This document shows, piece by piece, positions 1 through 42,381 of a DNA stretch of 64,000 nucleotides. How positions within the stretch are numbered: position 1 is the first letter of the stretch; every line of letters starts with the position of its first letter. The notes beneath the pieces are model-generated. The model did not search any database, was not told the DNA's origin, and saw only the letters and a program-made list of their open reading frames with translations. The translations under genes were made by a program, and so were the position numbers. Source of the stretch: a virus; IMG/VR virus record IMGVR_UViG_3300036766_002288, positions 123,012 to 187,011 of that record, one strand, 5' to 3'.

Positions 1-1
1 A

Positions 2-841
2 TTGGCTGGTAATAACAAACGTGTTAGCGGTATGCCTGATGCACTTGCTAGTGATATAACTGGTTGTGAAATTATTCTTCTAAACGGCAATACTAAGACT
101 GTTAGAGGTCCGCTTTTCTGCAATGTTATTTTAGCTGACGAAATCAATCGTTTCCCACCAAAGGCGCAAAACGCTTTTATTGAAGCCCTGGCAGAAGGGT
201 CAGTTACGATTAGCAACGACACTTATCGTTTGGAGCAACCATTTTTCTGTTTAGCAACGCAAAATCCAACAGAACAAAAGGGTACTAGTCGTATTCAAGA
301 AGCTCTTGCTGACCGATTTATGTTTAAGTTGGTAATGAGAGAGACTACGGAAGCGGAAAAAGTAGAGATTGCACGGAAGACCCACAATTTTGATTTGTCT
401 GCATTGAAGCAGATTGTTGATAGTGATACGGTTTGTAAGATTAGAAATGAATTATTTGAACACACGTATGTCAGTGACCCGACACGTAAGTATTGTGCAA
501 GGTTATTGCACGCTATTAATCATCCTGAACTATTTGGATTATTCACGGATGAACTTAAGACTTTGGGGACTGATCCATTGTTCAAGCAGCGTCCTGCTTT
601 GAATGACCGTGCCATGTTGCATTTAGAAGGTGCGGCGATGATGGAAGCGGTCATGAATGGTAGGGATTATGTAACACCGTATGATGTGGTATCGGTTGCA
701 CCTGATGTATTTAGAGTTAGGTTGATCGTGTTTGATTCCTCGCTCCACCTTTTGACTTCGACATATCCAGAGAGGTATTTGGCTGAGACTAAGTTGATTG
801 ACTACTTAATCAATGAGACTTTGAATAAGGTGGGAATGTGA
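2..841 (+). CDS. MoxR-family AAA+ ATPase (5' end outside window)
   Basis: MoxR ATPases act as chaperone-like partners of VWA proteins. The visible part holds the LASDITG segment typical of MoxR, a Walker B (residues about 42-48, ILADEIN), the sensor-1 region LATQNP, and the arginine-containing LADRFMF segment. The Walker A lies upstream of the window, so roughly 80-90 residues are missing. The TTG at position 2 is only the first in-frame codon, not the real start. It ends in a GTGA overlap with the next gene and heads an operon with DUF58 and Bat-type VWA genes, the usual MoxR partners. Family assignment is firm; the phage role is inferred. Confidence 0.93.
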   Translation: MAGNNKRVSGMPDALASDITGCEIILLNGNTKTVRGPLFCNVILADEINRFPPKAQNAFIEALAEGSVTISNDTYRLEQPFFCLATQNPTEQKGTSRIQEALADRFMFKLVMRETTEAEKVEIARKTHNFDLSALKQIVDSDTVCKIRNELFEHTYVSDPTRKYCARLLHAINHPELFGLFTDELKTLGTDPLFKQRPALNDRAMLHLEGAAMMEAVMNGRDYVTPYDVVSVAPDVFRVRLIVFDSSLHLLTSTYPERYLAETKLIDYLINETLNKVGM

Positions 842-1047
842 TTAAGTATGCTTGGAAATATGATGATGGTTCTTATTATGCTTGGTGTAGTTCTTGGGGA
901 TTCCATTGTCGTAGTATAGAGGCAGCACACCTTACCGACACTATTGAGGAGTGGGCTAGCTGTACAGCTGAGGGTAAGCCAGTTATGATTGATGTGTTTG
1001 GTGAACTTAAATATCCGTGGAATCCGACCCGCAGAGAAATAATATGA
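838..1047 (+). CDS. Small hypothetical protein, 69 aa
   Basis: Starts at GTG overlapping the moxR stop (GTGA) and ends in an ATGA overlap with the next gene, so it looks translationally coupled. It is rich in Tyr, Trp and Cys (YYAWCSSWGFHCRS), with no domain I recognise. It lies inside the MoxR/Bat operon. Confidence 0.6.
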   Translation: MIKYAWKYDDGSYYAWCSSWGFHCRSIEAAHLTDTIEEWASCTAEGKPVMIDVFGELKYPWNPTRREII

Positions 1048-1745
1048 CACTGAATAATGGACAAGAAGTTAGAATCGCACTGAAATCAAGACCCCCTGAC
1101 AACAAATGGGGTCTTTATGGAAGTGTTTATTGTGAAGAAGCAAAAACTTATCGCAAACGTCGTCTAATACTTCCTAAAGATTTTGTAAAAGGTCTATTCT
1201 ACATGGAAGCTGGATGTGGAATGGACGGTTGGATGGGTGCAACAAGATTTCAAATTGATGAAGTAATAGGCGATGAAGCTAAGATTTCTGTTTATTCATT
1301 AGGAAATAAAAGCAGGGGAAAAAAAGATAAAATTATTCAAGTTGCGTGGCCGCACGAATTTATAGCCGATGAACAGTCAGATGAAGTTCTGTATGAACTT
1401 TATAAAAAAGGCGTTTTTGTAAAAGGTTATGCCCACAAAGAAGTTTCTTATTTCACAGAAAAGATGAAGGAACAAGACAAAATTACTACTGACAAATATA
1501 GGCCACAAGTTGAGCAGGCTATTAAGGATGGTAAAGCCAAAATAGAATTTGAAATTTGTGAGGTTAGAGAAGGTATTGAATACTATCGTGCAAAATGTTA
1601 TGTAGATGGTTTACATGTGCCGCCTGCATTTGGGTTTACTCGTAAAGACTCCATGTATGAGTCATATTGGGATGAATGTGTTATGTTGTTAGCCAGAGAA
1701 TTAGGGTTTGTGCCAAAGAATGAGAGAGGATATTTTGTAGAATGA
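1044..1745 (+). CDS. Hypothetical protein, 233 aa
   Basis: The ATG at 1044 overlaps the previous stop (ATGA) and is preferred to an in-frame GTG at 1017. The protein is soluble and lysine-rich. The first half (LYGSVYCEEAKTYRKRRLILPKDF and the Trp/Gly-rich stretch after it is only part of it) may bind nucleic acid, but I recognise no family. It ends in ATGA with the next gene. It is an insertion between moxR and DUF58 relative to bacterial Bat operons. Confidence 0.7.
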   Translation: MTLNNGQEVRIALKSRPPDNKWGLYGSVYCEEAKTYRKRRLILPKDFVKGLFYMEAGCGMDGWMGATRFQIDEVIGDEAKISVYSLGNKSRGKKDKIIQVAWPHEFIADEQSDEVLYELYKKGVFVKGYAHKEVSYFTEKMKEQDKITTDKYRPQVEQAIKDGKAKIEFEICEVREGIEYYRAKCYVDGLHVPPAFGFTRKDSMYESYWDECVMLLARELGFVPKNERGYFVE

Positions 1746-1936
1746 ATCATGAATGGCAGTTATTCGTCACGACTGAAAATTATGACTATGGTGGGGTAGA
1801 TTTCTATCATTGGTGCAAATGGTGTGGTTCTATGAAGAAAGTGCCTGGCAGAGTGGATAAGCAAACTATATTCTATCTTCCAGGGCGTAAATCCATACCA
1901 AATTGTGAGGAATGTGTGGGGGATATAAATGAGTGA
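1742..1936 (+). CDS. Small zinc-ribbon-like protein, 64 aa
   Basis: Contains two Cys pairs, CKWC (about residues 23-26) and CEEC (about 55-58), a spacing compatible with one zinc site. ATG overlaps the upstream stop, and its own end overlaps the next start. Function unknown; position between moxR and DUF58 suggests co-transcription. Confidence 0.6.
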   Translation: MNHEWQLFVTTENYDYGGVDFYHWCKWCGSMKKVPGRVDKQTIFYLPGRKSIPNCEECVGDINE

Positions 1937-2120
1937 TTATTTAATCATTACAATGAAGGTCGTTCCTTACGATAACGTTTCCCCTGATAGTATTGAAAAG
2001 GAAATTGGAAACCAAACCACAAATTTACCCTGCAACAATCTTTTGTCTTGGGGTGGGTTGGGACCATTAGGAAAAATTTATGACGTGAAAGTTAGCCGTT
2101 CTCCTAAAGAATCATTATGA
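1929..2120 (+). CDS. Small hypothetical protein, 63 aa
   Basis: Overlaps both neighbours by a few bases. It has a beta-strand-like start (SDYLIITMKVVPYDNV) and a glycine-rich LLSWGGLGPLG segment. No recognised family. Confidence 0.55.
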   Translation: MSDYLIITMKVVPYDNVSPDSIEKEIGNQTTNLPCNNLLSWGGLGPLGKIYDVKVSRSPKESL

Positions 2121-2947
2121 AGAAGAATTTTCGTTCATTAGAACTGATAGCTAAAAAGTATTTAGATACTTTTTCTTCTGGTATTCACGGCACGCTTCTG
2201 AAGGATAGTCTCATCGAAGTAGATGTTATAAGGGAATATCAGCCTGGAGATAAAAGATTAGATTCTAAATCCAGTTTGAAAACTGGCAAAACAATGTCCA
2301 GGGTGTTCAATCCTGAACGGTCTCTTAATTTATTTATAATGTTGGATGTTAGTTCCTCCCAATATACGAAATTAGAGTCAGCGGTAATTACCGCTCTCTA
2401 CATGTCTTATTTGGGAGATATTTGTAACGAGAAGATAGGGTTATGTGTTTTTTCAGACCATGTTACTTCGGTTGTTGATGTAACAGACGATTATTCTTCG
2501 GTTGTAGGCACAATAGAAAAGTCCTTGCAATCTTTGAAGATGGACTCGGTTACAAGCGTCAATGATGCCGTAAATAAAGTATCTAATTTGTTTTTATCAA
2601 ATTCTTTGATTGTGCTTATATCTGATTTTTGTTATCCTTTGAATGATAAACTTTTGAATGATGTAAAAAAGATGGCATTATTGCCCACGAATAACTTTGT
2701 TAGTGTTGTGTTGCACAATCCTAATGATTGGATGTTATCGGTATCGGAATCTTTTAACATTACTTTGAAGGATGCTGAGAGTGGACAAGTTTCAAATTTT
2801 AATTTGAAATCAGCACAGGCTCAATATGATAAATGGCAAGCTAATTTGAAAACCAAGTTAGCTCGTTGTAATAGTGATGTTGTGTTTTTGAATGTCAAGG
2901 AAGAGAGATTTTTACTGCCATTGATAAAATATTTAATGAGGACTTGA
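2117..2947 (+). CDS. DUF58 / VWA-like protein
   Basis: DUF58 proteins are the usual partner of MoxR in bacterial operons. The diagnostic DUF58 block is present at about residues 40-65 (REYQPGDKRLDSKSSLKTGK), followed by a VWA-like core starting at MLDVSSSQ, with a DxSxS-type MIDAS. 276 residues is near the usual length for the soluble form. It overlaps the upstream gene (ATGA) and is followed after 1 nt by the BatD-like gene. Confidence 0.88.
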   Translation: MKKNFRSLELIAKKYLDTFSSGIHGTLLKDSLIEVDVIREYQPGDKRLDSKSSLKTGKTMSRVFNPERSLNLFIMLDVSSSQYTKLESAVITALYMSYLGDICNEKIGLCVFSDHVTSVVDVTDDYSSVVGTIEKSLQSLKMDSVTSVNDAVNKVSNLFLSNSLIVLISDFCYPLNDKLLNDVKKMALLPTNNFVSVVLHNPNDWMLSVSESFNITLKDAESGQVSNFNLKSAQAQYDKWQANLKTKLARCNSDVVFLNVKEERFLLPLIKYLMRT

Positions 2948-2948
2948 T

Positions 2949-4472
2949 ATGAATTTTCTTGTATTGTTTACGTTGCTGTCTTTTATACCGCCTGATGATC
3001 CAATTATCGAACCTGCGCCTCCGAATCTTATTGCAGTACCGCCTGTAAAGGTGGTGCCGCGAGCGATGTTTAGTTTGGAAGATTTCCATATTTATGATGA
3101 AAAGCACAATCTACATGGATTGCCATTGACTCAAAAGATTTATGTAAGTGCCCCAAGTGACGAAGAAAAGAGACTTTTTATCAAGTTTGGTGAGAAACTT
3201 CCAGGCTTTACGGAGTTTTCGGTTATTGCCAACGGCATGAATAAGGACTTTAAGGGTTTGGTGCTTTTGTTCGACGAGAGGGGCAATGCTCTTAAGGCTT
3301 TAAATACTTGTTTGAAAGAAGGATATAGAGCCTTTCCTGTAGTAATTTATGACGATGTTGAGATGATTGTTCCTAATCAAGTAGTGGTCAGTATTCGGCC
3401 TAGTACTAGAAAGAGTGATTATTTTAAAAGATTGAATAAGGTGGCCGAAGGCAAGTTTGAAATTACAGAAATAGACAACAAAACTTTTTCTATTACTGCT
3501 AAAGAGATTGTCAATCCATCAAATATTTTAGTGTTATCGAATTTGATTTCACAAGATACTTTCTGGGTTAGTTGGGCATTGCCTGCTTTCGTACCATTGA
3601 ATGGATATATTTGGGCTACAGCAACAATTGAAACACCGTCTTATACTAACCTTGGGCAGGAACGCATTCTGAAGGTGGATATTAGTGTATTCGATCCTAA
3701 AATTGTTGTTAAGCTCGATTTGTTGCCACAAATGGGGCCAAGTTTGTATCCGTTTCCAAATGCTGGTGAAAATTGGCTTGATGTTAAACCACCTCAAATC
3801 ACAGAGACTGTTACTGCGACCAAGCGAGTAATTAGTATTTCATATCCATTTAGATATTTGCAGTTTGGCAATTTTGTATTTCAGCCAATTGCGATATCCT
3901 ATGAGAAGAATGGCAAGTTGATGCAAATAGGAACAAATACATGTCGGTTTGTCACTAAGAGTGTGATATTTGGCACTAATATCGAAGACTTACAACCAGA
4001 GTCTTATTCTCCCAATTTAGCTATGTTGCCCGCTGTTAAGCCAGTACAGACTCAAAAAGAATATTTAGGCGTGTTGGCTGGCGATGCCAAGTTGATTGTA
4101 ACAGGCTCGTTTGGTGTGGTTGGTGGAGTGTTGGTATTATTTTGGGCAGCTAGTTTACTTCCTATGTTGACTAGTATATTTAATAATAATCCTGGTGAAC
4201 ATTTATGGGAGCAATTGGATGCATGTCTGGATTTAGACCTAGAGGAAGATTGGCATCATGCTTATACTGCGATATCTTCTAGTTTGAATGCTGTGTTGGT
4301 CCGAGACTTTGGCGTATCCCTTTATTCTTTGACTCCTGAACACTGTACAGCGAATTTTTCAGAGTTGCTCGCTGAGTTGAACAAGTTGTATATGTGCGAG
4401 GAACATGTAGAGCCAGACTTTAGTGTATTGGAACACTCATTGATAGAGTTCTGCCGAAAACGTGAAATATGA
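2949..4472 (+). CDS. BatD-like membrane protein
   Basis: 507 residues. A hydrophobic N terminus (MNFLVLFTLLSF) resembles a signal peptide. It is followed by a beta-rich periplasmic-type region, one membrane segment at about 375-397 (VVGGVLVLFWAASLLPML) and a cytoplasmic alpha-helical tail of about 110 residues. This layout and its place between DUF58 and VWA genes match BatD of aerotolerance operons, although sequence similarity is only general. It overlaps the next gene by 4 nt. Confidence 0.65.
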   Translation: MNFLVLFTLLSFIPPDDPIIEPAPPNLIAVPPVKVVPRAMFSLEDFHIYDEKHNLHGLPLTQKIYVSAPSDEEKRLFIKFGEKLPGFTEFSVIANGMNKDFKGLVLLFDERGNALKALNTCLKEGYRAFPVVIYDDVEMIVPNQVVVSIRPSTRKSDYFKRLNKVAEGKFEITEIDNKTFSITAKEIVNPSNILVLSNLISQDTFWVSWALPAFVPLNGYIWATATIETPSYTNLGQERILKVDISVFDPKIVVKLDLLPQMGPSLYPFPNAGENWLDVKPPQITETVTATKRVISISYPFRYLQFGNFVFQPIAISYEKNGKLMQIGTNTCRFVTKSVIFGTNIEDLQPESYSPNLAMLPAVKPVQTQKEYLGVLAGDAKLIVTGSFGVVGGVLVLFWAASLLPMLTSIFNNNPGEHLWEQLDACLDLDLEEDWHHAYTAISSSLNAVLVRDFGVSLYSLTPEHCTANFSELLAELNKLYMCEEHVEPDFSVLEHSLIEFCRKREI

Positions 4473-5530
4473 TTGATAATCCTTATTTCCTGCTGCTTTT
4501 CCTAGTATTTCTGGCGTATTTATACTTCTGGAAATCTAGGAAATTCTATTTCCGTCATCCTTGTATGGAAAATCTCTCAACTTATAATCCAAGATTATGG
4601 TTGAGATGGGAATTTTTCATGCTAATGGGTGCTGCGTTTCTGGTGATGGGAGCGTGTAATTTCGTCTGGAAGACCAAAGAGAGTTTTAGGGTTAGTTTAG
4701 TCCATAAGTATGTTTTGATTAATGATGGCAGTGGCTCAATGGTGGATTATAACAAGCCAAATGGCATCGGCAAAGAACTGACTTCTGTTTTATCAGGCAA
4801 TGCCAAGTTATTTGAGTTCTTAGGCAAGCGGCAAGATGGTAGTAAGGACTTGGTTGGTGCCGTCGTATTTTCTAGTGACTCGTATGTAGTTTCATTCTTA
4901 TCAGATGATCCAGAGTTTGTGCATAAGAAACTAAAAAGGGTGGATTATAGGCTTCCGCCTATGAATCAGGGGACATATGTAGGAATTGGTCTGTGGACTG
5001 GTCTAGAAATGGTTTTGTCTCACGACAAGTCGATCAGTCAAAGTGACCTTGACCACTTGCAATTGAAATTCTATGGTGCAGGACACAATATCAAAAAAGA
5101 TAGTGTTACTGAGGCTCTGGTTGCGAACAAGAATGTGTTTGCAGGAAGCTCGCTCATATTCTTCACAGATGGGATTTTCGATTATCCTGAAGGTAATCCC
5201 AGGATAATGTCCACTTACAAGATCATTAATTTTTGTAAGGATATGGGTATTAGGGTCTATTTCATATCTATATTCCAATTGGACCCACTTATCATAAGAT
5301 ACTGTAAGGATTCTGGGGGCAGAGGAGAACTTATTACGGATGGTTACAACAAGAAAAGATTAGAAGAGATTTACGAAGACATAGTAACTAGTCAGGCTAA
5401 GGAATATACAATAAAAGAAGAAAGTGTAGATAGGTCATTAGGTACTATTTTAGGTTTAATTGGTTTGGCTTTAGTATTATGTGGATTGGTTTTACACAAC
5501 ACAAAACAGTTGAATTTTACAGAGGTTTAA
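4469..5530 (+). CDS. Bat-type VWA-domain membrane protein
   Basis: 353 residues. Two N-terminal membrane segments (about 4-20 and 50-67) are followed by a VWA domain and a C-terminal membrane segment (about 330-348). The MIDAS is complete: NDGSGSM, the threonine of NQGTYVGIG, and the aspartate of FFTDGIFDYP. BatA and BatB have the same layout. ATGA overlap upstream; three nucleotides to the TPR gene. Confidence 0.88.
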   Translation: MIDNPYFLLLFLVFLAYLYFWKSRKFYFRHPCMENLSTYNPRLWLRWEFFMLMGAAFLVMGACNFVWKTKESFRVSLVHKYVLINDGSGSMVDYNKPNGIGKELTSVLSGNAKLFEFLGKRQDGSKDLVGAVVFSSDSYVVSFLSDDPEFVHKKLKRVDYRLPPMNQGTYVGIGLWTGLEMVLSHDKSISQSDLDHLQLKFYGAGHNIKKDSVTEALVANKNVFAGSSLIFFTDGIFDYPEGNPRIMSTYKIINFCKDMGIRVYFISIFQLDPLIIRYCKDSGGRGELITDGYNKKRLEEIYEDIVTSQAKEYTIKEESVDRSLGTILGLIGLALVLCGLVLHNTKQLNFTEV

Positions 5531-5532
5531 AC

Positions 5533-6333
5533 ATGAAGAAGTTATTGTTTGGTTTGGGATTTCTTGCACTAGCTTGTGCATCCTTTGTTTATTTAGGGCA
5601 CAAAGAAACTCAGTTTTCTAATGCTGATTTCAGAGTTGCAGAAGACGATTATTTTAACCAACTTAAGTTCAATAAGGTTAATGGGATGTTTAATAAGGCA
5701 AATTCAGAGAGTAGTCTTGCCATAGTTGAAGCGTTATATTTGGGGACATTGGATGAAGTTGCTGAAGCAAGAATGGGGCCTTATGTTACTTTGAAGAAGG
5801 CTTCATTGTTGTTTAATCAAGGGGAATACTATTTGCATAGGGCGGAAGAGATTGAGTTTTCTTTATCCTCGCCGCCTAAGCCAGCAGGTCCACCAGATGT
5901 TGACCCAGAGAATCCAAATGTAGAGCCAATAGCCGCCCCGAACGAACAGAGGAAATATCATCCTTTGACAATACAGATGTTGCAGAAGGCTACGGATTCT
6001 TATGAAGCTGCTAGAAAAGAAGTTGACAAATTGTCAGAAAATACTGATATTGAGTTCAATTTTGGAATGAATTATCTTAAGGGTGAGATTTACTATCGCT
6101 TTTTAGAATTCATGTCAGATAGTGATACTGCACAAGAGTTATTCAATCAGACATTGAACTATTACAAGATAGCTCTTAGGCACAAACCTGGGGATATCAA
6201 TACGGTGGTAAACATTGAAATCCTAATTAAGAACCAGAATGATTTTTTATCTAATGCTAGTAATCCACAAGTGAAGCGTAAGCAAATGTTGAATGTTCGT
6301 AAGGCTGGACTTGGTTCGTCAAAGGGGAACTAA
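5533..6333 (+). CDS. TPR-like Bat-operon protein (BatC/BatE type)
   Basis: 266 residues from ATG 5533, which starts a signal or anchor sequence (KKLLFGLGFLALACASFVYL). A Pro-rich linker (about 115-135) is followed by helical repeats. The final one, YYKIALRHKPGDINTVVNIE, resembles the last TPR of BatC/BatE proteins. An upstream in-frame start at 5479 would lie inside the VWA gene and was not used. Lies between the two VWA genes. Confidence 0.7.
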   Translation: MKKLLFGLGFLALACASFVYLGHKETQFSNADFRVAEDDYFNQLKFNKVNGMFNKANSESSLAIVEALYLGTLDEVAEARMGPYVTLKKASLLFNQGEYYLHRAEEIEFSLSSPPKPAGPPDVDPENPNVEPIAAPNEQRKYHPLTIQMLQKATDSYEAARKEVDKLSENTDIEFNFGMNYLKGEIYYRFLEFMSDSDTAQELFNQTLNYYKIALRHKPGDINTVVNIEILIKNQNDFLSNASNPQVKRKQMLNVRKAGLGSSKGN

Positions 6334-6334
6334 C

Positions 6335-7357
6335 ATGCTGTTTGATAATCCAGTCTATCTGTGGTTGCTACTTATTTCTGCACCAATAGCGATTCTTTTA
6401 TTGAACACTATTCGTTTGTTCATGAGATTTCATAACAAGATAGCGGAAGAGTTTTTCGCTTATAGTAAATTCCCTTCTTACCTTAGAAGAGGTATTAGTC
6501 ATGGCGGTTATATTGCTGCGTTGATATTTCTTATTGTAGGCTTGGCGGAACCATACATTATGGTGAACGTCAGGGATAAGGAATATAAGGATATGCGTCT
6601 TTTGTTTGTATTAGACGTTTCCAGGTCTATGGTCTATGCGGAAGATGTTTTACCAAATCGCATGGAAGCGATGAAAAATCATGTGAAGGATTTTTATCTG
6701 CATTTAGATGGCCTGTATGAGTGTGCTATTCTTCCTTTTGCTGGTGATGCTAATCCATACTTTTGTCCTTTGACCAAGAGTAGGACTTCATTTGTGGCGA
6801 TGGTGGAAGAATTGGATTGGCGTTCAGCACCAGTATTGGGCACAGATTTAACTCGGGCAATGCAGTCTGTGCAAGATGTGTATATCAAGCAGGATAAGAT
6901 TGATAAATCTGGATTTAACATTATCATATTGATATCTGATGGTGGCAAAGAAGAATCCGTGGCCACCAATAGAATTGAATTATTGAAAATTGCGCGGGAA
7001 TTGGCAAAGAAGAATTTCAAAATTTACACGGTTGGTGTTGGTGGTGAGAAACCTTGTCCGTTGGTGGTAAGGGATAGCAAAGGTGGTTTTAAATCTTACG
7101 TACTTGGCGACAACAACCAGCCTGCAACTTCGCAATTAGATGAAGAAATTTTGAGGCAACTTGCGTCGATTGGTCACGGCAAGTATTATAGCCTAAATGC
7201 TTCTACCGCTTTAGCTTCCGACTTGAAGGAAATTGTTAAGGAGAATCAAGCTCTTATTACAGAGCAGATTCGACCAGAAAAATTTCCTTTACAGGGATAC
7301 TTATTTTCTGTTACAGTCTGCCTTCTATTCGGCTGCATGTTACTGAACAAGGTATAA
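6335..7357 (+). CDS. Second Bat-type VWA-domain membrane protein
   Basis: 340 residues from ATG 6335. Two N-terminal membrane segments (about 8-28 and 55-73), then VWA with a canonical MIDAS: LDVSRSM, the threonine of LGTDLTRAM, and ISDGGKE. A C-terminal membrane segment closes it (about 318-336). This is the standard BatA/BatB architecture and closer to consensus than the first VWA gene. It is the last Bat gene; only 4 nt separate it from the replicative helicase gene, so both are probably on one transcript. Confidence 0.92.
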   Translation: MLFDNPVYLWLLLISAPIAILLLNTIRLFMRFHNKIAEEFFAYSKFPSYLRRGISHGGYIAALIFLIVGLAEPYIMVNVRDKEYKDMRLLFVLDVSRSMVYAEDVLPNRMEAMKNHVKDFYLHLDGLYECAILPFAGDANPYFCPLTKSRTSFVAMVEELDWRSAPVLGTDLTRAMQSVQDVYIKQDKIDKSGFNIIILISDGGKEESVATNRIELLKIARELAKKNFKIYTVGVGGEKPCPLVVRDSKGGFKSYVLGDNNQPATSQLDEEILRQLASIGHGKYYSLNASTALASDLKEIVKENQALITEQIRPEKFPLQGYLFSVTVCLLFGCMLLNKV

Positions 7358-7361
7358 AGAA

Positions 7362-8924
7362 ATGGATAAGCTAAATGACCAAGACCAAGTAATCATTAAT
7401 TCCTTTATTGATCCTGATAAAACTGGTGTAGAGCCAAAATACCCCTTTGATGAGGAATTTCTTAGGGTTGTTCTAGGCACACTTCTTTGCAATCGTTATT
7501 TCATTTGTCAGGGCATCAACCTGATAAAGCCGATTTATTTCAGAAGTGAAATACATCAGGTCATATGCAGGACTCTATTTACATATTTCGAGCAATATAG
7601 ACAGCAGCCTAGCAAGGTATTTCTTCGTGAGTTAGTAGATGAGTATCTTAAGAAGAGATACAATAACCAGGAAGATACTTACCGTGCTATTCGTTTGATA
7701 TATCAGACTGAAATTAACTTAGTCTACGACTATTACACAAAGGGTGGTAGTGGTAGCATTATGCTCATGGTGGATTCTCCAGAAGCTATTTTGGACAAGA
7801 TCACCAGTTTTGCTAAAACACAAGCCATTAAGATTGCATTTGCTAAATCTGTGGACTTGATTAGAAGAAATCCAGAATCAGATGAGACTTTTGATAAAGT
7901 GGATTTGTTGTATAAGGAAGCGAGATTAGTAAATCGTAATATAGATTTAGGTTTGAATTATTTTGAGACTTTGGAAGAACGATATGCGAGAACCCAAGAA
8001 AATGTAGAAAAGGCAGAAACTTTTTGTAGTGGCTTCAGGTCTATTGATAGTGGTTTGATGGGTGGTGGTTTGGTCCGTGGTGAGATGGGTGCTTGGATGG
8101 GTGCTTCAGGTACGGGTAAGAGTTTAGCGTTGACATGGGCATCTGTTTGCAATATTCAAAAAGGCAAAAAGGTTCTGTATATTTCAACAGAAATGGACCC
8201 AGACCGCATTGCCACTAGATTTGATGCCCAATTAACACATATTGGCCATCATCAATTAATGCTTAGGCAGGAGGAAGTGTGGGCAGCGTTAAGAAGGCAG
8301 GTGGATGAATATGAGGATAAGAGAAGGTTAGTCATTAAGCAATTCCCAAGTGGCAGTGCGGATATGACTACCGTAAGGGCGTATTATTCGCAAATCACTT
8401 CTATGGGCTTCAGGCCAGATTTGGTTATATTTGATTATCCTGGTGATATGAAGGATAATTCTAATCTATCTGGCTGGGATTCACGTTTTAGATTGTTGAG
8501 AGAGATTCGTGGTTTTGGTGTAGAAGAAAAACATTGTACATTTATTGCAGTTCACCCAAATAGAAGTGTTTCTGAATTGGGTCTTGAGGAGTTCATGGAT
8601 GAGAAGAATCAGGGTGATTCTTTTAAGCAATTCCAGATATTTGATGCATTTTGGACATTGAATCAGACAGCGGTGGAGAATAAAGCGAATGTTGGTAGAG
8701 GATTTGTTGCCAAGGCAAGAAATGGTAAGTCAAAGTTTTCGTTTAAGATTCGCTATCATTTTGACGATCAAACTTTGAGATTGGAAGAGATAAGTCATCA
8801 AACCTATATGGGATTCATGACGAAGACCCAGGATGCAGATACGGATCACACAGAAACAGTAATTGATAAGGTCAGTGTTGAAAAAAAGAAATTTGAACCA
8901 TCTGATGGCGAGAGAATTGGCTAG
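7362..8924 (+). CDS. DnaB/gp41-like replicative helicase
   Basis: 520 residues. The N-terminal third is helical and DnaB-like. The C-terminal RecA-fold domain begins near residue 225 with Walker A GASGTGKS (about 245-252) and the following KKVLYISTEMD. Walker B is LVIFDYPGD (about 356-364). It should unwind DNA at the fork as a hexamer. Ends at TAG; reading on would give only nine codons, so TAG is a genuine stop here. Confidence 0.88.
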   Translation: MDKLNDQDQVIINSFIDPDKTGVEPKYPFDEEFLRVVLGTLLCNRYFICQGINLIKPIYFRSEIHQVICRTLFTYFEQYRQQPSKVFLRELVDEYLKKRYNNQEDTYRAIRLIYQTEINLVYDYYTKGGSGSIMLMVDSPEAILDKITSFAKTQAIKIAFAKSVDLIRRNPESDETFDKVDLLYKEARLVNRNIDLGLNYFETLEERYARTQENVEKAETFCSGFRSIDSGLMGGGLVRGEMGAWMGASGTGKSLALTWASVCNIQKGKKVLYISTEMDPDRIATRFDAQLTHIGHHQLMLRQEEVWAALRRQVDEYEDKRRLVIKQFPSGSADMTTVRAYYSQITSMGFRPDLVIFDYPGDMKDNSNLSGWDSRFRLLREIRGFGVEEKHCTFIAVHPNRSVSELGLEEFMDEKNQGDSFKQFQIFDAFWTLNQTAVENKANVGRGFVAKARNGKSKFSFKIRYHFDDQTLRLEEISHQTYMGFMTKTQDADTDHTETVIDKVSVEKKKFEPSDGERIG

Positions 8925-8957: not shown

Positions 8958-9473
8958 ATGCTTGAAGAAAAAAGAAAAGTAAATGTGAATGGTCAAGAAG
9001 TGGTTCTTGACTCTGGTAAATTATTTTTTAGTGAAGGAACACTGGATAATTATCTAGAAGTTGAAGGCGGCTGGATTGATTATTTTGGAGCAAAACTCGC
9101 GGATGCTGAGCGACAGCTAGCAGAGTGGGAAATGAAAGTTGAGATTGAAGAAGATGAATATGAGCGGGTATATGCCAGAGTATTCAGCACGATTAAATCT
9201 ACGGAAGGCGGCTCAGATAAGTTGGTCGAAGGTCAGACTAAGATAGAAGCCACAGTCGTAGCCGCAAAAACCAAAGTTCAAGAATATAGAGAAAAGGCTA
9301 TTGCTTACAAACATGCTGTGAATATGCTTAAACAGCACTTACGCGCATGGGATAAAAATCATGAAAATGCACAAAATCGCGGTAATACGTTAAGAAAAGA
9401 AATGGAAAGGTTACATAAGGATCGTTTCTTAGATGACAAGATTGACGATATTATTAAACATGTAGATGTATAG
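8958..9473 (+). CDS. Coiled-coil protein, possible UvsY-like mediator
   Basis: 171 residues, mostly charged helix. A central block at about 45-125 is predicted coiled coil, and the C-terminal part reads LKQHLRAWDKNHENAQNRG. Its size, composition and neighbourhood recall T4 UvsY, the loader of UvsX onto gp32-coated DNA, but I cannot show homology. Ends with TAG that is also part of the Shine-Dalgarno sequence (TAGGAG) of the next gene. Confidence 0.6.
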   Translation: MLEEKRKVNVNGQEVVLDSGKLFFSEGTLDNYLEVEGGWIDYFGAKLADAERQLAEWEMKVEIEEDEYERVYARVFSTIKSTEGGSDKLVEGQTKIEATVVAAKTKVQEYREKAIAYKHAVNMLKQHLRAWDKNHENAQNRGNTLRKEMERLHKDRFLDDKIDDIIKHVDV

Positions 9474-9483
9474 GAGTTTGCAA

Positions 9484-10110
9484 ATGAATCGGCGTGAAGT
9501 TATTGCATTAGGTGCTAGTATAGTTTTTTCTTTACCTGCACAAGCGGCCAAGAAGTCTGAAAAATGTCCTTGTGTAGATCAAGACAAGAAGGCTACTAAT
9601 CCATTAGAAAGAAAGCACGCTCAGATTTGTGCTTTCCACATTGGATATGATGACTCTAAGTTGCAAATTGAAACAACTCATTATTGTACTGCTGTAGGGG
9701 ACGGAGTGTTTCAATGCATACTATATGATTCACCTGAAAAAGATGCTAAGTTAATTGGTGTTGAGTATGTTGTTACAGAGCAGGTTTTCGGTCAACTACC
9801 CCAAGAAGAAACTAAATTATGGCATCCTCATAGATTTGAAATTGAGGAAGGTTTGTTTACTATTCATAAAGTGACTAAAAACTGTGAAGAAACTTTGTTG
9901 AAGGCTTTGTATAGTTCTTGGGGCAAAACATGGCAAACTTGGCCTGACGTAACTAGCAAGGTTCCAATGGGTAAACCAATTCTTATGTGGTCTGCTAGAC
10001 AGGCGAATGAGGTCGATCCAAAGTTAATTCAAAAGCGGGATAAGAAATATAATATTAAAATAGAGGATGTGAAGAAATCCAGAGAGTTTTTAGGGGAGGG
10101 ACAAAAGTGA
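9484..10110 (+). CDS. DUF1264 (oil-body-associated-like) secreted protein
   Basis: 208 residues from ATG 9484, just after TAGGAG. The N terminus NRREVIALGASIVFSLPAQA looks like a Tat-type signal. The body matches DUF1264: TTHYCTAV, QCILYDSPEKDAKLIGVEYV, LWHPHRFEIEEG and WGKTWQTWPD. The family exists in bacteria and plants and its biochemical role is unclear. Unexpected in a phage and likely taken from a host. Ends in GTGA with the next gene. Confidence 0.82.
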   Translation: MNRREVIALGASIVFSLPAQAAKKSEKCPCVDQDKKATNPLERKHAQICAFHIGYDDSKLQIETTHYCTAVGDGVFQCILYDSPEKDAKLIGVEYVVTEQVFGQLPQEETKLWHPHRFEIEEGLFTIHKVTKNCEETLLKALYSSWGKTWQTWPDVTSKVPMGKPILMWSARQANEVDPKLIQKRDKKYNIKIEDVKKSREFLGEGQK

Positions 10111-34760: not shown

Positions 34761-35042
34761 GTGAGAAAATCAAGGAAATACTCAAAACAACAATGCATTA
34801 AGCTGATAGACAAAGAGTGTCTTTTCTGTGGCGAAAAAGAATATAAGTTGTTAGACTGTCATAGGATATATCCAGGTGAAAAAGGCGGAACTTATGTTCA
34901 ACGTAACACAATTACAAGCTGTGCAAACTGTCACAGAAAGATGCATGGTGGGCTAATCAGGGTTGTTGGGAAATATCTAGGCTCTGATGGCAGGTGGGTA
35001 GTTATCTATTTTGACGAGAATAATGTTGAACATTTGAAATAG
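34761..35042 (+). CDS. HNH-type nuclease-like protein
   Basis: 93 residues, GTG start. Two Cys pairs (CLFCG, CANCH) around LLDCHRIYPGEKGG give an HNH/zinc fold. No other domain. Could be a small homing or restriction-type nuclease. Ends at TAG. Confidence 0.55.
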   Translation: MRKSRKYSKQQCIKLIDKECLFCGEKEYKLLDCHRIYPGEKGGTYVQRNTITSCANCHRKMHGGLIRVVGKYLGSDGRWVVIYFDENNVEHLK

Positions 35043-35050
35043 ATAGTTTG

Positions 35051-35260
35051 ATGAATTTCCGTGAATTTGCTATGAATGAGTTTTCAATTAGGGGTATCCA
35101 ATACCGTCCTAATTATGTTCCTTGCGGGATTCCTAAAAAGGGGAAGAAGGGTGGCCCTGGTAGCATGAATTTAGCGGCAGTAATTAACCCTTCTAGACCT
35201 TACCAACCTACATTCAGAATGGGTAAGTCGCATGTCAAGAGTCAGATTGCGATGAAGTAG
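35051..35260 (+). CDS. CTS-like small basic protein, 69 aa
   Basis: Starts MNFREFAMNEFSIRG, similar to the capsid-targeting N terminus. The rest is basic and Gly/Pro-rich (IPKKGKKGGPGSMNL). Ends at TAG. Converges on the minus-strand block. Confidence 0.5.
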   Translation: MNFREFAMNEFSIRGIQYRPNYVPCGIPKKGKKGGPGSMNLAAVINPSRPYQPTFRMGKSHVKSQIAMK

Positions 35261-35450
35261 GTTCTTCTATGTAGTAGCAATATTGTATCCCTATGATTTT
35301 CGCAATATCATCATCCAAGGATGAACCGTTGCATACTGTTGGTGGGGCACCATGAGCTAAAAGGTCATTAATGATTTCTTTTGGGTCGATTCCCATAGCT
35401 TCAGCTATTGTCTTTATCATCCAAGGTTTTTTGACTTTTAGCGTTATCAT
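35235..35450 (-). CDS. Hypothetical protein, 71 aa
   Basis: Start chosen at ATG 35450, 5 nt after AAAGGAG. Carries IAEAMGIDPKEIINDLL and two cysteines. Overlaps the upstream minus gene by 50 nt. Confidence 0.5.
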   Translation of the reverse strand: MITLKVKKPWMIKTIAEAMGIDPKEIINDLLAHGAPPTVCNGSSLDDDIAKIIGIQYCYYIEEPTSSQSDS

Positions 35451-35640
35451 CTTCTCTCCTTTGAAAAAAGCTTTTGCCATCTCCACCTCTAGGTGTATGT
35501 AAGTCATTATTGGAGTCTTTTACACACCAATCAATAAATTTGATTACATCCGCATTGCTTTCATTACCATCAAATAACCAATGACAGTATTTGGTTGTTA
35601 AGTGTTCTACAAAATCTTCGATAAAATCAGCTTGATTCAT
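35401..35640 (-). CDS. Hypothetical protein, 79 aa
   Basis: Helical start (NQADFIEDFVEHLTTKYCHW), charged tail. Overlaps both neighbours. Unknown. Confidence 0.45.
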   Translation of the reverse strand: MNQADFIEDFVEHLTTKYCHWLFDGNESNADVIKFIDWCVKDSNNDLHTPRGGDGKSFFQRREDDNAKSQKTLDDKDNS

Positions 35641-35908
35641 TTTTGTGTAACTTTTTATAAGATTTCATTGCTTTGGCAAATGGTACGTTTCTAACTTTGC
35701 GACCTTTTCTATCATACCAACCTACGTGTTCAGGCCATTCACTATCATCTAACTCGCTCGATTGTATTTCCCACCAAGACCAAGTATCTACCGCAGAGTC
35801 TTTAATAAGCTCAACAGCTTTTTCTACACTTGATGTTAAGTAAAAAACCATTTCGTCTATATGGTTTTCCGAAAATATTTCATGATGTAGGACAATGTAA
35901 ATTTTCAT
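35627..35908 (-). CDS. Hypothetical protein, 93 aa
   Basis: Starts KIYIVLHHE; Trp-rich centre (TWSWWEIQ); basic end. Overlaps the upstream gene by 4 nt. No family recognised. Confidence 0.55.
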   Translation of the reverse strand: MKIYIVLHHEIFSENHIDEMVFYLTSSVEKAVELIKDSAVDTWSWWEIQSSELDDSEWPEHVGWYDRKGRKVRNVPFAKAMKSYKKLHKNESS

Positions 35909-36156
35909 TGCATGTGTGGTTTGGAGATTTCCCAGGCTTTGCTAATATTTTCTTTTGCAACACGTAATGCATTAGATGCAGCTAATAAGGAAGAGGCAAG
36001 TAAATACCTTTCTCTAACATAATCCGCAATTGAGTCAGCGTAAAGCTCATTGGCTAATTTATCTAGAAATTCTTCTAGTGCATCGTAACGAAGATGGGCA
36101 AGATCAGTGGCGAGTTTTTCTAAACCACCTTCATAATTAATTTCTGTATTGTGCAT
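35905..36156 (-). CDS. Small helical protein, 83 aa
   Basis: All-helical (LATDLAHLRYDALEEFLDKL). Coupled by overlap to both neighbours. Confidence 0.55.
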   Translation of the reverse strand: MHNTEINYEGGLEKLATDLAHLRYDALEEFLDKLANELYADSIADYVRERYLLASSLLAASNALRVAKENISKAWEISKPHMQ

Positions 36157-36617
36157 TATTGTTCCTTTGATTGCATATAAATGCTATTTTTGCCCGCTGT
36201 AACTGACTCCTGGTATCTTCGACACGTTAAATTAAGTCTATATTTGCCGATGAAGCGATTGTATATGTAATTCCTGTTTACAACAAGCCAATCGCTATCT
36301 TCAACCAGTAGTAGTGTACCTATTGGGGGGATTAAACCCAACTTACTATATGCAACTTTGGCATTTACTTGAATCCCTATTTCATCAGGCTCATCAATAC
36401 CAAACGTATTAAGTTGCTGTTGTTTCGGATAATCATAGAACGCATAAATTAGCACGGGAGGTATTGCTACAAAGACAGTTCCTTCGAGATAAAGTTTTTC
36501 AACAGTTTTATCTCGCTTGCAATAACCTTTGATTGTAACTGGATGCCCTGCACTTTCGATCCAATAACCATCTACTTTTCTTAATACATTTTTTATAAAA
36601 TCAAATATAATTCTCAT
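36156..36617 (-). CDS. Hypothetical beta-rich protein, 153 aa
   Basis: Contains repeated short strands (GYCKRDKTVEKLYLEGTVF, IPPVLIYAFYDYP). Might be a virion or sugar-processing protein; unrecognised. Overlaps the GNAT gene by 17 nt. Confidence 0.55.
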   Translation of the reverse strand: MRIIFDFIKNVLRKVDGYWIESAGHPVTIKGYCKRDKTVEKLYLEGTVFVAIPPVLIYAFYDYPKQQQLNTFGIDEPDEIGIQVNAKVAYSKLGLIPPIGTLLLVEDSDWLVVNRNYIYNRFIGKYRLNLTCRRYQESVTAGKNSIYMQSKEQ

Positions 36618-37140
36618 TTAATACTCCTAAGACTAAGTTAGCTACGTATTCATTGTTTTTGAATATTGCTTTTCGTTGGGTGCCTTCTACTTTAAACCCA
36701 GCGGCCTCGGCACATTTCACTGATACTTCATTAGTTATCAATATCTGAGCGTCAAGTCTGTGTAAATTCATTAATTTAAAGGCAAAAGCAACACCAGCAA
36801 TAACTAGCTTCTTACCATAGCCTTTTCCTCGCCAGCCCTGAAAGATATCCCAGCCCACATCCGCCTTCCTGTTTTGCCAATCAATATTGAAAAATTTAAA
36901 TACGCCACAATCGTAACCGCTAGTGTTTAATGAAACATTGGCAATGAGTATCAGAGTTCTGGGACATTGTGTTTCTTGACTGATGGATTCAAGCCATTTT
37001 TCCTGACTAGTAAGGTTGGCATAGGTGACAGTATGCGTGCCGAAATGACTTTCATTCTTTAAATCAAGTAATTTAGCAGCATCACACTTATCTGCTTTAC
37101 GAAAGGCTATAGTGTTTGTATGTGTGTACAAATAACTCAT
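36601..37140 (-). CDS. GNAT-family N-acetyltransferase (RimJ/RimL type)
   Basis: 179 residues. Acetyl-CoA-binding core near FQGWRGKGYGKKLVIAG (about 96-112), and LHRLDAQILITNEVSVKCAEAAGFKVEG matches the family. Followed by the DegT aminotransferase. Such a pair (aminotransferase plus acetyltransferase) makes N-acetylated amino sugars. Confidence 0.8.
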   Translation of the reverse strand: MSYLYTHTNTIAFRKADKCDAAKLLDLKNESHFGTHTVTYANLTSQEKWLESISQETQCPRTLILIANVSLNTSGYDCGVFKFFNIDWQNRKADVGWDIFQGWRGKGYGKKLVIAGVAFAFKLMNLHRLDAQILITNEVSVKCAEAAGFKVEGTQRKAIFKNNEYVANLVLGVLNENYI

Positions 37141-38262
37141 TTACCAGCCCTCTTTAATGCAGTCTACGATGTAAGCTCGGTCTTTTTCAGTTACCCACCA
37201 GCCACAAGGGATTGCTATCATTTCTTTTGCGATTAGTTCCAGTCCAGGTAGTTGCGCCCTGAATTCTTTCAAGCAATCATGTTTGTCATTACGATCATGT
37301 ACTTGACTCACCATGATGCCTTTTTCTTTCATCTTTGTTATAAAGTTCTCTCTATTCCTAACCATTATTGTGTAAATCCAATAACTTGATTCATGATTAG
37401 TTTCATTCTCAGGTAGTGTTACACCAGGCATGTCCCATAGATTATTGTTATAGAACTTAGCGTTTTCTTTGTTTTTTTCAACTAAGCCCGATATATGTGG
37501 ATAATTTTCTATGCCGATAGTGGCATTAATATCATTCATATGGAATTTGAATCCAAAGTTCTTTATGTTTTGTGCGCATCTAAAATCTTGATTACTTGTT
37601 CTGTCTAGTCCATACCATCTTAATAATTTGGCATCATCGTGCCATAGTGCATTAGGGCTTATAATTAGTCCACCATCGCCAGTAGTAAAGTGCTTAATTG
37701 CCTGGAAACTGAATACCGAGAAATTGCCATGTGTGCCGATTAGTTTATTTTTGTATTTAGCACCCCATGCATGGGCACAGTCTTCGATTATATGTGGGGT
37801 GAATCCATATAGGTTGTTGCATTTTTCCTGTATTGTTTTTAATTTGTCAAGGTCTACTGGATAGCCACCCCAATGGACTACCATAACTGCTTTAGTTTTT
37901 GGGCTTATTTTTCTTGCAACATCATCTAAGTCAATATTGTAATTTCTTGGGTCAACATCAGCCCATCGCAGTTTCACTCCTCTTGAAAGTATGGCAAAGT
38001 TGGTTGCCGTGCAGGTCAATGGGGTCGTTATGATTTCATCATCTTTTTCAAAAGCTAATGTTCTTTTAATCATCTCTACGACAAGTTCTAATCCTGACGT
38101 GCAGCTATTTACTGTATTGACATAGGGGTTATCAAAATGATTGGATAACATCCTTTCAAATTCATCAACTTTTTTACCTTGCCCAATAAAGCCGCTCATT
38201 AATACTTTTCCTACTTCTATTGGTGCAGTAGGGGACATAAACACTTTAAATAAATCTATCAT
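37141..38262 (-). CDS. DegT/DnrJ/EryC1-type sugar aminotransferase
   Basis: 373 residues. PLP-lysine region FSFQAIKHFTTGDGG (about 180-194), plus the VHWGGYPVDLDKL and EDCAHAWGA segments of the family. It transfers an amino group to a nucleotide-linked keto-sugar. Next to GNAT and glycosyltransferases; overlaps the next gene by 4 nt. Confidence 0.9.
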   Translation of the reverse strand: MIDLFKVFMSPTAPIEVGKVLMSGFIGQGKKVDEFERMLSNHFDNPYVNTVNSCTSGLELVVEMIKRTLAFEKDDEIITTPLTCTATNFAILSRGVKLRWADVDPRNYNIDLDDVARKISPKTKAVMVVHWGGYPVDLDKLKTIQEKCNNLYGFTPHIIEDCAHAWGAKYKNKLIGTHGNFSVFSFQAIKHFTTGDGGLIISPNALWHDDAKLLRWYGLDRTSNQDFRCAQNIKNFGFKFHMNDINATIGIENYPHISGLVEKNKENAKFYNNNLWDMPGVTLPENETNHESSYWIYTIMVRNRENFITKMKEKGIMVSQVHDRNDKHDCLKEFRAQLPGLELIAKEMIAIPCGWWVTEKDRAYIVDCIKEGW

Positions 38263-39041
38263 TTTGACTCCAGTGCCGTTTTGTATTCGGCAAATGCTGT
38301 ATCTGAGACTGACACCGATTGATGATATAATAGTTTTGTAATTGGTAAGTTTTTAATTTTAGGGCTTGAAGCGTGATACTTTGTAGAATAATTGTGTAAA
38401 TCTATTGTTTGGAACGATAGCCAGTTCATATTGTTTTGAATGGCCCAAGGATATAATAAGCAACCAGTGTCGTAATGTCCATTAGGTTTCAAAAATAATT
38501 CCTTGAAATTTTCTGGGGGACTATCACGCCACTCAAGTTTGAATCCAAGAAAATGATTTACGCCGAATTGTTGGGCAAACTTTTGGGTTGGCAATTTGGA
38601 TTTCCTTACCATCATGTTTACAACAGTAGGGAAGTATCCATGTACATACCAATTGGGATTATTTCTAGAAACACCAATCATATCAAGATTAAACTTTAGC
38701 ATTAGGTCATAATATAATTTGTCTACGTTGGTATAGAAAAATACATCTACGTCCGAGATAAGTATCAAGTCATTAGATGAGCAATCTATGGATTGGTGAA
38801 GTGCATGGAGGTGATCTTGACTTACATCCAATTTGTTAAATTTTCTGTACTCACTAAATGGGGAGCCTATTTCGCGGAAAGCGATACCATTTTCAATCCA
38901 CGTATTTGAATAAGTGTAATGTTGATCGGCTTTGCAGATTACGACTTCAGTTATTAATTTTGAGTGTTCAATTATTGATTTTTTGAAATGCTCAAAATAT
39001 CTTTCTACTTCTGGTATTGTGGTGGTTACTAATGTAATCAT
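38259..39041 (-). CDS. Glycosyltransferase-like protein, family A member 6
   Basis: 260 residues. Shares the D-x-D core (ISDVDVFFY, about 95-103) and the WLSFQTIDLHNYST end with the five tandem genes at 43412-47632. Shorter C terminus. Separated from the others by the HEG/MerR block. Confidence 0.72.
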   Translation of the reverse strand: MITLVTTTIPEVERYFEHFKKSIIEHSKLITEVVICKADQHYTYSNTWIENGIAFREIGSPFSEYRKFNKLDVSQDHLHALHQSIDCSSNDLILISDVDVFFYTNVDKLYYDLMLKFNLDMIGVSRNNPNWYVHGYFPTVVNMMVRKSKLPTQKFAQQFGVNHFLGFKLEWRDSPPENFKELFLKPNGHYDTGCLLYPWAIQNNMNWLSFQTIDLHNYSTKYHASSPKIKNLPITKLLYHQSVSVSDTAFAEYKTALESK

Positions 39042-40024
39042 TTGTATTTGTTGGGTAAATATTTGGAATATAGTGGTCCATAATCAGGATGAGCATATAT
39101 TTCTTCTTCTAGCTCACGAACAACTGGTAGCCACTGTTTCAGTTTTTGTTCTTTACCAGTATCTATCTCCCAACTCATCGCCCCAAAATGAGTTATTAAG
39201 TGTGGGTCTAATTGCACAAATTTCAAGCCTTGTTGGACAGCATTATAGTAATGCCACGCACCCATTTCCATGCTTATATAATGATAATCAGCAGCTGTTT
39301 GTGGTGGATTGTCAAGTAACCCTAAATTCCTATAATATTTGAAAAACTCTTCAACGTTTCCAACCTTATCAGTCAATCTAAAAGGCGGCGTTTCTATGTG
39401 ATAACCACACCATGAAGACCCTAGTTTTCTAATCCATTTCTTTCGGCACACTAGAAAAGCACATAGTAGGTGCGGGAATCTTAATAATGGTTTATTTTGG
39501 TGTATCGCTGAGTCGCATTGACAACAGTGTAGGATTGGCGAATAAGCGATTACTACATTGGGGTCAGTGTAGAATTTGTCTTTAACCTCTTGTAGCCAAT
39601 TATGCTTGTTGATGATGATATCATCATGCATGATTAAATAGGCATCAGTATGTACCCAAGGAAGTGCCATCTCTACAGATTCAGGATGGCCTATTCGACT
39701 CCAAACTCTTATAACACTGACTGGCATATCGCGTTTGATTTTAGGCTCATCAATATGCCACCATTTTAGGCGTCTTAATTCTTCCAGAAAAGCCTGTTTC
39801 TGATCTTGGTTAGTCGGATCACCAGTTCTTTTATCTGGCCCATTAATAACCACCATGAAATGCTCAAGTAAGTCTTTAACTTTAGCTCTAAGTAAGAGCG
39901 AGAAGGTAGACCAGAGTAAACATTCTATCGGGGCCTGATATGTGGGGTATATGGCGGTTATTTTCTCTGGTACATGAGTTAATTCCACCGCGTCATCAAT
40001 ATCACAAATCATGTGGTTATGCAT
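39038..40024 (-). CDS. Glycosyltransferase-like protein, family B copy 1
   Basis: 328 residues. Core LIMHDDIIINKHNW (D-x-D type, about 132-145). A paralog of the gene at 42415: both start MHxx and share ECLLWxxFSLLLR. The start overlaps the HEG stop by 8 nt. Confidence 0.75.
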   Translation of the reverse strand: MHNHMICDIDDAVELTHVPEKITAIYPTYQAPIECLLWSTFSLLLRAKVKDLLEHFMVVINGPDKRTGDPTNQDQKQAFLEELRRLKWWHIDEPKIKRDMPVSVIRVWSRIGHPESVEMALPWVHTDAYLIMHDDIIINKHNWLQEVKDKFYTDPNVVIAYSPILHCCQCDSAIHQNKPLLRFPHLLCAFLVCRKKWIRKLGSSWCGYHIETPPFRLTDKVGNVEEFFKYYRNLGLLDNPPQTAADYHYISMEMGAWHYYNAVQQGLKFVQLDPHLITHFGAMSWEIDTGKEQKLKQWLPVVRELEEEIYAHPDYGPLYSKYLPNKYK

Positions 40025-41744: not shown

Positions 41745-41747
41745 ATT

Positions 41748-42359
41748 TTAATCTCTTTTATAGTAAATTCTTTGTATTACAATCCCATTTTCATTATTGT
41801 CAGCTAATTCTAAGCCCCATACAAATGCTGGGGACATAGAACGTCTGTTATCTGGATATGGCATGTTTTGCCAAATATCAAAAGTGCTTAAATATAAAAC
41901 ATCTTTTTCAATTTTTGGGTCCATGTATAGTCCGTTAGTACTTGTTAAGGTTATTCCAGTGTTTTTTAAATCATCTTTCAGGATAATTTCTTTTTCCCAA
42001 AAATAACGAGAAGTAGGTATGTTGTGTGTTATTTTTTGGTATGTTCCGATTTCAAGTCCTGCATAACCTTGCGGTTCTGGCTCGCTACCTACTAACCAAC
42101 CACGATAATCACCGATATTAAAATCGCCAAGAATTTTTAAGACTGATGGTAGTTTTCTAAAAGTTTCATATTGAATATGATATACAAAAGGATTTTTCAT
42201 GACTTCTTTTAGAGACTCAATTTGCCAGCGATAATAGCGCCGATGACCACCTGCTGTTCTTTGTGGGATCAAATAACCCCGACTTTCGCAAAGTCGGATA
42301 GTTTCTGCACTAGTACCCCATATTTCAGCGGCCTCGCCTATCGAAATTAATTCATTCAT
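41748..42359 (-). CDS. MerR-type HTH protein, 203 aa
   Basis: N-terminal MerR-type HTH: LISIGEAAEIWGTSAETIRL, then RGYLIPQRTAGGHRRYY. C-terminal part is unrecognised (GLEIGTYQKITHN, GIVIQRIYY). ATG 42359 is preferred; ATG 42392 lies within a perfect inverted repeat that may be its operator. TATATAAG is just upstream of this ATG. Confidence 0.7.
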   Translation of the reverse strand: MNELISIGEAAEIWGTSAETIRLCESRGYLIPQRTAGGHRRYYRWQIESLKEVMKNPFVYHIQYETFRKLPSVLKILGDFNIGDYRGWLVGSEPEPQGYAGLEIGTYQKITHNIPTSRYFWEKEIILKDDLKNTGITLTSTNGLYMDPKIEKDVLYLSTFDIWQNMPYPDNRRSMSPAFVWGLELADNNENGIVIQRIYYKRD

Positions 42360-42381
42360 AATCTTATATAGTGTGGATTCG

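Follow-up and report, generated by a model that had tools for sequence, protein, structure and literature searches.

A MoxR-DUF58-VWA membrane gene block conserved as a unit in a clade of huge phages

The stretch of DNA analyzed here (hereinafter designated the window; 64,000 nucleotides) comprises positions 123,012-187,011, the final 64 kb, of the 187,011-bp IMG/VR virus record IMGVR_UViG_3300036766_002288. It opens with six collinear genes encoding a MoxR-type AAA+ ATPase, a DUF58 protein, an exported protein, a membrane protein with a von Willebrand factor A (VWA) domain (VWA1), a tetratricopeptide repeat (TPR)-like protein and a second VWA membrane protein (VWA2). A clade of huge phages retains these six genes as one unit, with the motor motifs and the metal ion-dependent adhesion site (MIDAS) motifs intact. 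The best reading of the block is that its products may remodel the host envelope during phage replication.

Conservation and origin of the block

All genes of the module read on the plus strand, in the order MoxR, a 69-aa gene, three small open reading frames (ORFs), DUF58, the exported 507-aa protein, VWA1, TPR-like protein, VWA2 and a DnaB-like helicase, and the successive junctions from MoxR through DnaB measure -4, -4, -4, -8, -4, +1, -4, +2, +1 and +4 nt. Upstream of moxR lie a polA-like gene, a 197-aa gene and a NUDIX gene (the polA and NUDIX family names were assigned by reading the sequences, not by profile search). The initial annotation had correctly described this tight packing, including the 4 nt to the helicase, and its succession of MoxR, DUF58, two complete VWA genes and DnaB stands, except that moxR itself is cut by the window edge (230 nt missing). 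It had also counted four small insertions between MoxR and DUF58: the 233-, 64- and 63-aa ORFs (1044-2120) are indeed local, being present in no relative's module seen, whereas the 69-aa gene is kept in place in two other phages (L011 and L014), with a ratio of nonsynonymous to synonymous substitution rates (dN/dS) of 0.057 between those two.

The search of phage genomes for the gene set that the annotation had called for, performed with alignment-based scans, recovered the block in eight more phages belonging to one clade. The nine phages are the window, LR756511.1 and IMG/VR 14202_001521, 37264_005791, 37264_004563, 47160_015280, 9537_004351, 17388_000001 and 20193_001248; the 341-kb phage and the 20193 phage each yielded the block once more from a duplicate contig, not counted here. 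Two- and six-sequence alignments were required, as single-sequence viral scans with DUF58 or VWA2 gave no matches. Five of the eight relatives have the whole block; the other three end at a contig edge, with every gene kept up to the cut, and no relative with a visible upstream region is without the block. Among the 50,697 INPHARED records, LR756511.1 alone holds a convincing copy. Several other INPHARED 'phage' records, namely MT838533 (5.2 kb), MT835720 and the short Listeria LM 4-11-1 and 4-14-1 contigs, are unannotated, contain Bat/MoxR genes and look bacterial; MT838533 clusters with Prevotella in trees.

The block sits directly upstream of DnaB in eight of the nine phages (overlap to +4 nt), and both the NUDIX-MoxR overlap and the VWA2-DnaB contact are retained among relatives. 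The exception is the 436-kb record 17388_000001, a member of the same wider clade (PrkA 66% and DnaB 45% identical), in which the six genes stay together despite lying ~150 kb from DnaB, indicating that they form a unit of their own. Protein identities to the window run from 70-79% for MoxR (rows lacking the intein) down to 24-39% for the exported protein. In comparison of the two closest relatives, rough dN/dS figures are 0.04-0.09 for MoxR, DUF58, VWA1, TPR-like protein and VWA2 and 0.034 for DnaB; for the exported protein dS is saturated, and the proportions of nonsynonymous and synonymous differences are pN 0.20 versus pS 0.75. The module genes are under purifying selection and are not pseudogenised.

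The contig is a piece of a huge-phage genome and not of a bacterial one. In addition to its listing as an IMG/VR virus record, the window encodes a UvsX-like recombinase and a phage-type single-stranded DNA-binding protein, along with a branch-migration helicase, a bacterial-type PolIII alpha subunit and a transfer-messenger RNA (tmRNA), and the gene order flanking the module is collinear with that of LR756511.1, a 595-kb uncultured phage record. The large terminase of LR756511.1 is 80% identical to that of the 341-kb record 3300014202_001521. Three terminase queries found no match in the 187-kb or the 436-kb record, which are either fragments or carry a divergent terminase. Together with the selection figures and the nine genomes, this leaves neither of the outcomes that the annotation had named as fatal to its proposal, a bacterial fragment or a set absent from other phages and decayed to pseudogenes. 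Bacteroidota homologues scored higher against the phage profiles, which at first hinted at a Bacteroidota origin and host. Shine-Dalgarno motifs are normally absent in that phylum; because the window uses them (18 of 39 starts, versus 5.3 expected), this host assignment was dropped.

In trees with bacterial homologues the phage MoxR proteins form one clade in 100% of bootstrap trees and the phage DUF58 proteins one clade in 98%, and a joint VWA tree resolves each of the two phage VWA families as one clade with 100/100 support. The phage clades in the MoxR, DUF58 and both VWA subtrees sit on very long branches. Since each phage protein set is a single clade on such a branch, the trees fit best with a single ancient acquisition followed by vertical descent. 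The per-protein trees that the annotation had suggested thus point to one origin for each set. The scan of genome contigs returned just two loci, both Arcicella MoxR, and a donor was sought instead among Bacteroidota genomes and plasmid records, a sample too uneven for one to be named.

Inteins offer a further view of MoxR. Two of the phages have an in-frame intein of 336-347 aa, carrying Hom_end_hint and Hom_end (Hint and homing-endonuclease) domains, that separates K67 from T68 in the MoxR P-loop, and the DnaB of a third phage contains a homologous intein (46% identical) at the same P-loop spot (between K and T/S). A single intein family has made use of two different P-loop proteins, and the shared spot implies that MoxR is handled by inteins like a core ATPase; P-loop inteins would typically persist in genes indispensable to the genome. 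In 20193_001248, a 591-aa TnpB-like gene (L091:4068-5843; the label is our reading of zinc-ribbon motifs at its C-terminus) lies between the VWA1 and TPR genes, neither of which is broken.

Predicted architecture of the module proteins

MoxR possesses the AAA_3 domain (PF07726, 2e-31 for the truncated part), AAA_lid_2 (PF17863) and intact Walker A (GGTGTGKT) and Walker B (LADE) motifs, with PDB entry 2r44 as a profile match (8e-51). Downstream of it, the DUF58 protein retains an intact DxS(x)S core, in which D, the second S of the DxSxS motif and SDF are invariant across six aligned phages, and a hydropathy scan finds no transmembrane (TM) segment in it. Four small ORFs separate the two genes in the window, and no gene does in LR756511.1, 9537_004351 or 17388_000001. 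Both proteins are predicted by hydropathy and charge to be cytosolic.

VWA1 and VWA2 share the TM-TM-VWA-TM plan and the DxSxS...T...D MIDAS signature of BatA and BatB, with the MIDAS residues intact in the phage alignments. Family scores are strong for VWA2 (PF13519 7e-12; NCBIfam BatB_Lepto 1.2e-23; PDB BatB 3ibs 1e-16) and weak for VWA1 (PF13519 1e-3; NCBIfam BatA_Lepto 7e-3), in which D86, SGS, T169, TDG and a C-terminal TEV are invariant in a six-phage alignment. Hydropathy and charge give both proteins the topology TM1, positively charged loop, TM2, VWA domain, TM3 and short tail. By the positive-inside rule, applied to six aligned phages, the charged loop between TM1 and TM2 implies that both VWA domains should face the periplasm, the location determined experimentally for the VWA domain of the Borrelia homologue BB0173 (PMC5700661).

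The exported protein contains a signal peptide, a TM segment at 382-400 and a helical cytosolic tail of ~105 aa. Its AlphaFold2 (AF2) model, of moderate confidence (predicted local distance difference test, pLDDT, 66), shows tandem N-terminal RRM-like/ferredoxin-fold domains and an immunoglobulin (Ig)-like domain, and Foldseek places a TRAP-beta-type Ig fold among the top matches. No match was obtained in Pfam, PHROG or NCBIfam, and profile-profile comparison (hhalign) gave a probability of 1-5%, both against bacterial BatD and against the bacterial protein that occupies the corresponding locus position. The 'BatD-like' label given previously therefore holds for architecture alone. For the TPR protein of the initial annotation, the AF2 model (pLDDT 78) is all-helical and built of helical hairpins; TPR matches are marginal, the local match to BatC is weak, and Foldseek returns just general helical-repeat and 14-3-3 matches at E 0.1 or worse. 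The TPR-like and exported proteins are both predicted to place large domains in the periplasm. No peptidase family was found in any module protein.

Table 1 Positions of the module genes and other features (window coordinates unless a locus is given)
Feature	Position	Strand	Basis or remark
MoxR-type AAA+ ATPase, 3' part	1..841	+	Full 356-aa gene from record 122,782, 230 nt upstream of window
69-aa protein of no known function, GTG start, 4-nt moxR overlap	838..1047	+	tblastn 63-65% identity in L011, L014
233-aa protein without known family, window-specific insertion	1044..1745	+	No Pfam match; relatives' modules without it
64-aa ORF, window-specific insertion	1742..1936	+	Absent from relatives' modules
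63-aa ORF, window-specific insertion	1929..2120	+	Absent from relatives' modules
DUF58 (soluble VWA-like), 276 aa, without TM	2117..2947	+	PF01882 6.5e-16
Exported protein, 507 aa, DUF4381/BatD position	2949..4472	+	Signal peptide, one TM, AF2 model; no sequence family
VWA membrane protein 1 (BatA position), 353 aa, TM-TM-VWA-TM, MIDAS complete	4469..5530	+	PF13519 1e-3
TPR-like all-helical protein (BatC-like), 266 aa, N-terminal membrane anchor	5533..6333	+	AF2 pLDDT 78
VWA membrane protein 2 (BatB), 340 aa, TM-TM-VWA-TM, MIDAS complete	6335..7357	+	NCBIfam BatB_Lepto 1.2e-23
DnaB-like replicative helicase, begins 4 nt past VWA2	7362..8924	+	PHROG_19 2e-54; synteny
tmRNA gene	55834-56182	+	Rfam RF00023, 125 bits; tag AENTYALAA
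Inteins in MoxR	L011:2581-4656; L021:8774-10879		Hint and homing-endonuclease domains
Intein in DnaB	L013:3-2570		Hint and homing-endonuclease domains

Downstream of DnaB, a DUF1264 gene (9466-10110, plus strand; 5e-54) encodes a protein with a twin-arginine-like N-terminus (MNRRE) and is kept in several relatives, though not all; the protein is possibly an exported client. The window is mostly plus-strand, apart from a minus-strand gene run (36156-47632) that includes an HNH/LAGLIDADG composite endonuclease (40017-41744).

A possible role at the host envelope

We propose, with a probability of roughly 45%, that the block is a variant, acquired long ago and now the phages' own, of the bacterial MoxR-DUF58-BatA/BatB membrane system, in which a cytosolic motor acts via periplasmic VWA domains to remodel the host envelope during replication. 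DUF58 is the sole soluble VWA-like partner in the module, which argues for MoxR-DUF58 as the motor. The MoxR hexamer may grip DUF58 in a finger-in-pore fashion, as in NorQ-NorD, where the MoxR ring holds a finger of its VWA partner and twists it (PMC13036017, PMC9976466). The exported protein, by its cytosolic tail, and the VWA proteins would then relay ATP hydrolysis to the periplasmic MIDAS domains, which would remodel host envelope proteins. Presumably expressed with the replication genes, the block could maintain or alter the host envelope for as long as the phage is copying its genome of several hundred kb.

The window also encodes PrkA (AAA_PrkA 6e-77, PrkA C-terminal 2e-66), DUF444 (7e-52) and SpoVR (1.6e-99) consecutively at 48876-54698 (plus strand), a run that, judged from these family matches, is a bacterial stress operon of the yeaG-yeaH-ycgB type in a phage. 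Each of the four large related records searched has both PrkA (66-79% identical) and SpoVR, and their retention by the same phages would lend support to a stress- or envelope-management role. A Macro domain protein (5e-8) lies beside the PrkA cluster at 51213-51803 (plus strand). More tentatively, the trans-envelope ATP-driven machine might be a core function of the replication phase, retained no less firmly than the helicase, with envelope management being basic to infection and with PrkA-DUF444-SpoVR as a second AAA+/stress module alongside.

Several points weigh against the envelope-remodeling proposal. The exported and TPR-like proteins are not provable homologues of BatD and BatC, the timing of expression is read from gene position alone, and dS exceeds 1 in most genes, leaving the dN/dS figures approximate. 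Moreover, the function of bacterial Bat proteins is itself disputed, with Leptospira bat deletions having no growth, morphology or oxidative-stress phenotype (PMC3557215).

The module could instead mature or insert phage structural proteins as a virion-assembly chaperone, as proposed for the MoxR/peptidase-vWA pair of jumbo-phage group 2.2, a different two-gene system (Iyer et al. 2021, PMC7824862), and likewise for the Acidianus two-tailed virus tail; ATPases of the MoxR type act as assembly chaperones in general. We find this unlikely, since most module genes encode membrane or exported proteins and are placed with polA, NUDIX, DnaB and other replication/nucleotide genes, not with structural ones, a setting that suggests action in replication rather than in virion assembly; in LR756511.1 the terminase lies ~145 kb from the module. 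The near-constant contact with DnaB would suit an anchor or organiser of the replication compartment, with the replisome or genome fastened to the inner membrane. The distance to DnaB in the 436-kb relative, and the predicted periplasmic location of the VWA, TPR-like and Ig parts, away from DNA, make such an anchor improbable.

Under superinfection exclusion, or as an anti-injection barrier, the periplasmic VWA domains would meet incoming phage or plasmid transfer machinery at the inner membrane and stop it or take it apart, in keeping with the predicted membrane-facing topology. Exclusion genes, however, are usually small, variable and dispensable, whereas this is a six-gene block with low dN/dS in every relative seen, and a PADLOC scan gives marginal matches for MoxR only and none for the other five core proteins. 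Membrane VWA systems have been invoked in conflict and Ter-type exclusion (PMC7824862), but such a role is quite improbable here. Bat operons being bacterial, and unverified 'phage' records such as the 5.2-kb MT838533 looking bacterial, the block might also be an assembly artefact, a provirus edge or a bacterial fragment taken for phage. Its collinearity in nine phages, including the terminase-bearing LR756511.1, and the well-supported phage clades (in 98-100% of the MoxR and DUF58 bootstrap trees, and with 100/100 support for each VWA family) refute this unless all nine records share the artefact. Envelope remodeling during replication is retained as the best reading.

Comparison with known MoxR-VWA systems

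The literature searched (subscription papers lay outside it) describes two-gene pairs in phages but no Bat set of the membrane type, and to our knowledge this would be the first membrane-type MoxR-VWA system in phages. A MoxR-type pair is known from Bacillus phage 0305phi8-36 (PMC2147016) and a MoxR-like ATPase from a Staphylococcus jumbo phage (PMC10638138). The group 2.2 jumbo-phage pair (Iyer et al. 2021, PMC7824862) is likewise a phage-encoded MoxR-VWA chaperone pair, but consists of two genes with a metallopeptidase fusion, without reported DUF58, exported, TPR or membrane VWA proteins, and the present module lacks a metallopeptidase-fused vWA protein; tblastn with this MoxR (1e-5, 50,697 phage records) returned no annotated jumbo-phage MoxR/peptidase-vWA record. 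Stenotrophomonas phage TS-12 (L093; complete 79.8-kb genome) also bears a MoxR-DUF58 pair, followed by a TgpA-type transglutaminase instead of BatA/BatB (consecutive within 34863-45627, all annotated as hypothetical), and looks like a separate acquisition. NorQ-NorD and CbbQ-CbbO combine a MoxR hexamer with a VWA partner, and the finger-in-pore mechanics are likely alike. By contrast, their single partner is on the cytosolic side and enzyme-specific, while the phage set spans the membrane with three VWA-fold proteins.

The closest likeness is to the bacterial Bat (Bacteroides aerotolerance) loci of Legionella, Agrobacterium, Persicobacter, Prevotella and other Bacteroidota, ordered MoxR - DUF58 - DUF4381 or Ig/TM - VWA - VWA or VWA/TPR - (TPR) - BatD. 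Shared with them are MoxR, DUF58, an exported Ig/TM or DUF4381 protein in third place, TM-TM-VWA-TM proteins, a TPR or TPR-like protein and short or overlapping junctions, and the third gene of Bacteroidota has the same plan as the phage exported protein (signal peptide, beta domain, TM, helical cytosolic tail). The phage MoxR is just ~40% identical to bacterial ones, the block is embedded in a replication operon, and its single exported protein has predicted tandem ferredoxin-like and Ig domains and no detectable BatD homology. Against the order MoxR-DUF58-X-BatA-BatB-BatC-BatD, the first four positions agree, as the initial annotation had it, but TPR and VWA2 are exchanged, so that the TPR gene sits between the VWA genes, and the terminal BatD/BatE is missing. 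'Whole Bat operon' was therefore an overstatement, with BatD and BatE homologues not demonstrated and the order altered. The phage version would suggest that very large phages need host-envelope management during infection. In bacteria, Bat systems are common and of disputed function; compared with them, the rearranged, pared-down and long-kept phage version provides a simple setting for finding that function and marks the important parts as MoxR, DUF58, two VWA proteins, one TPR-like protein and one exported protein.

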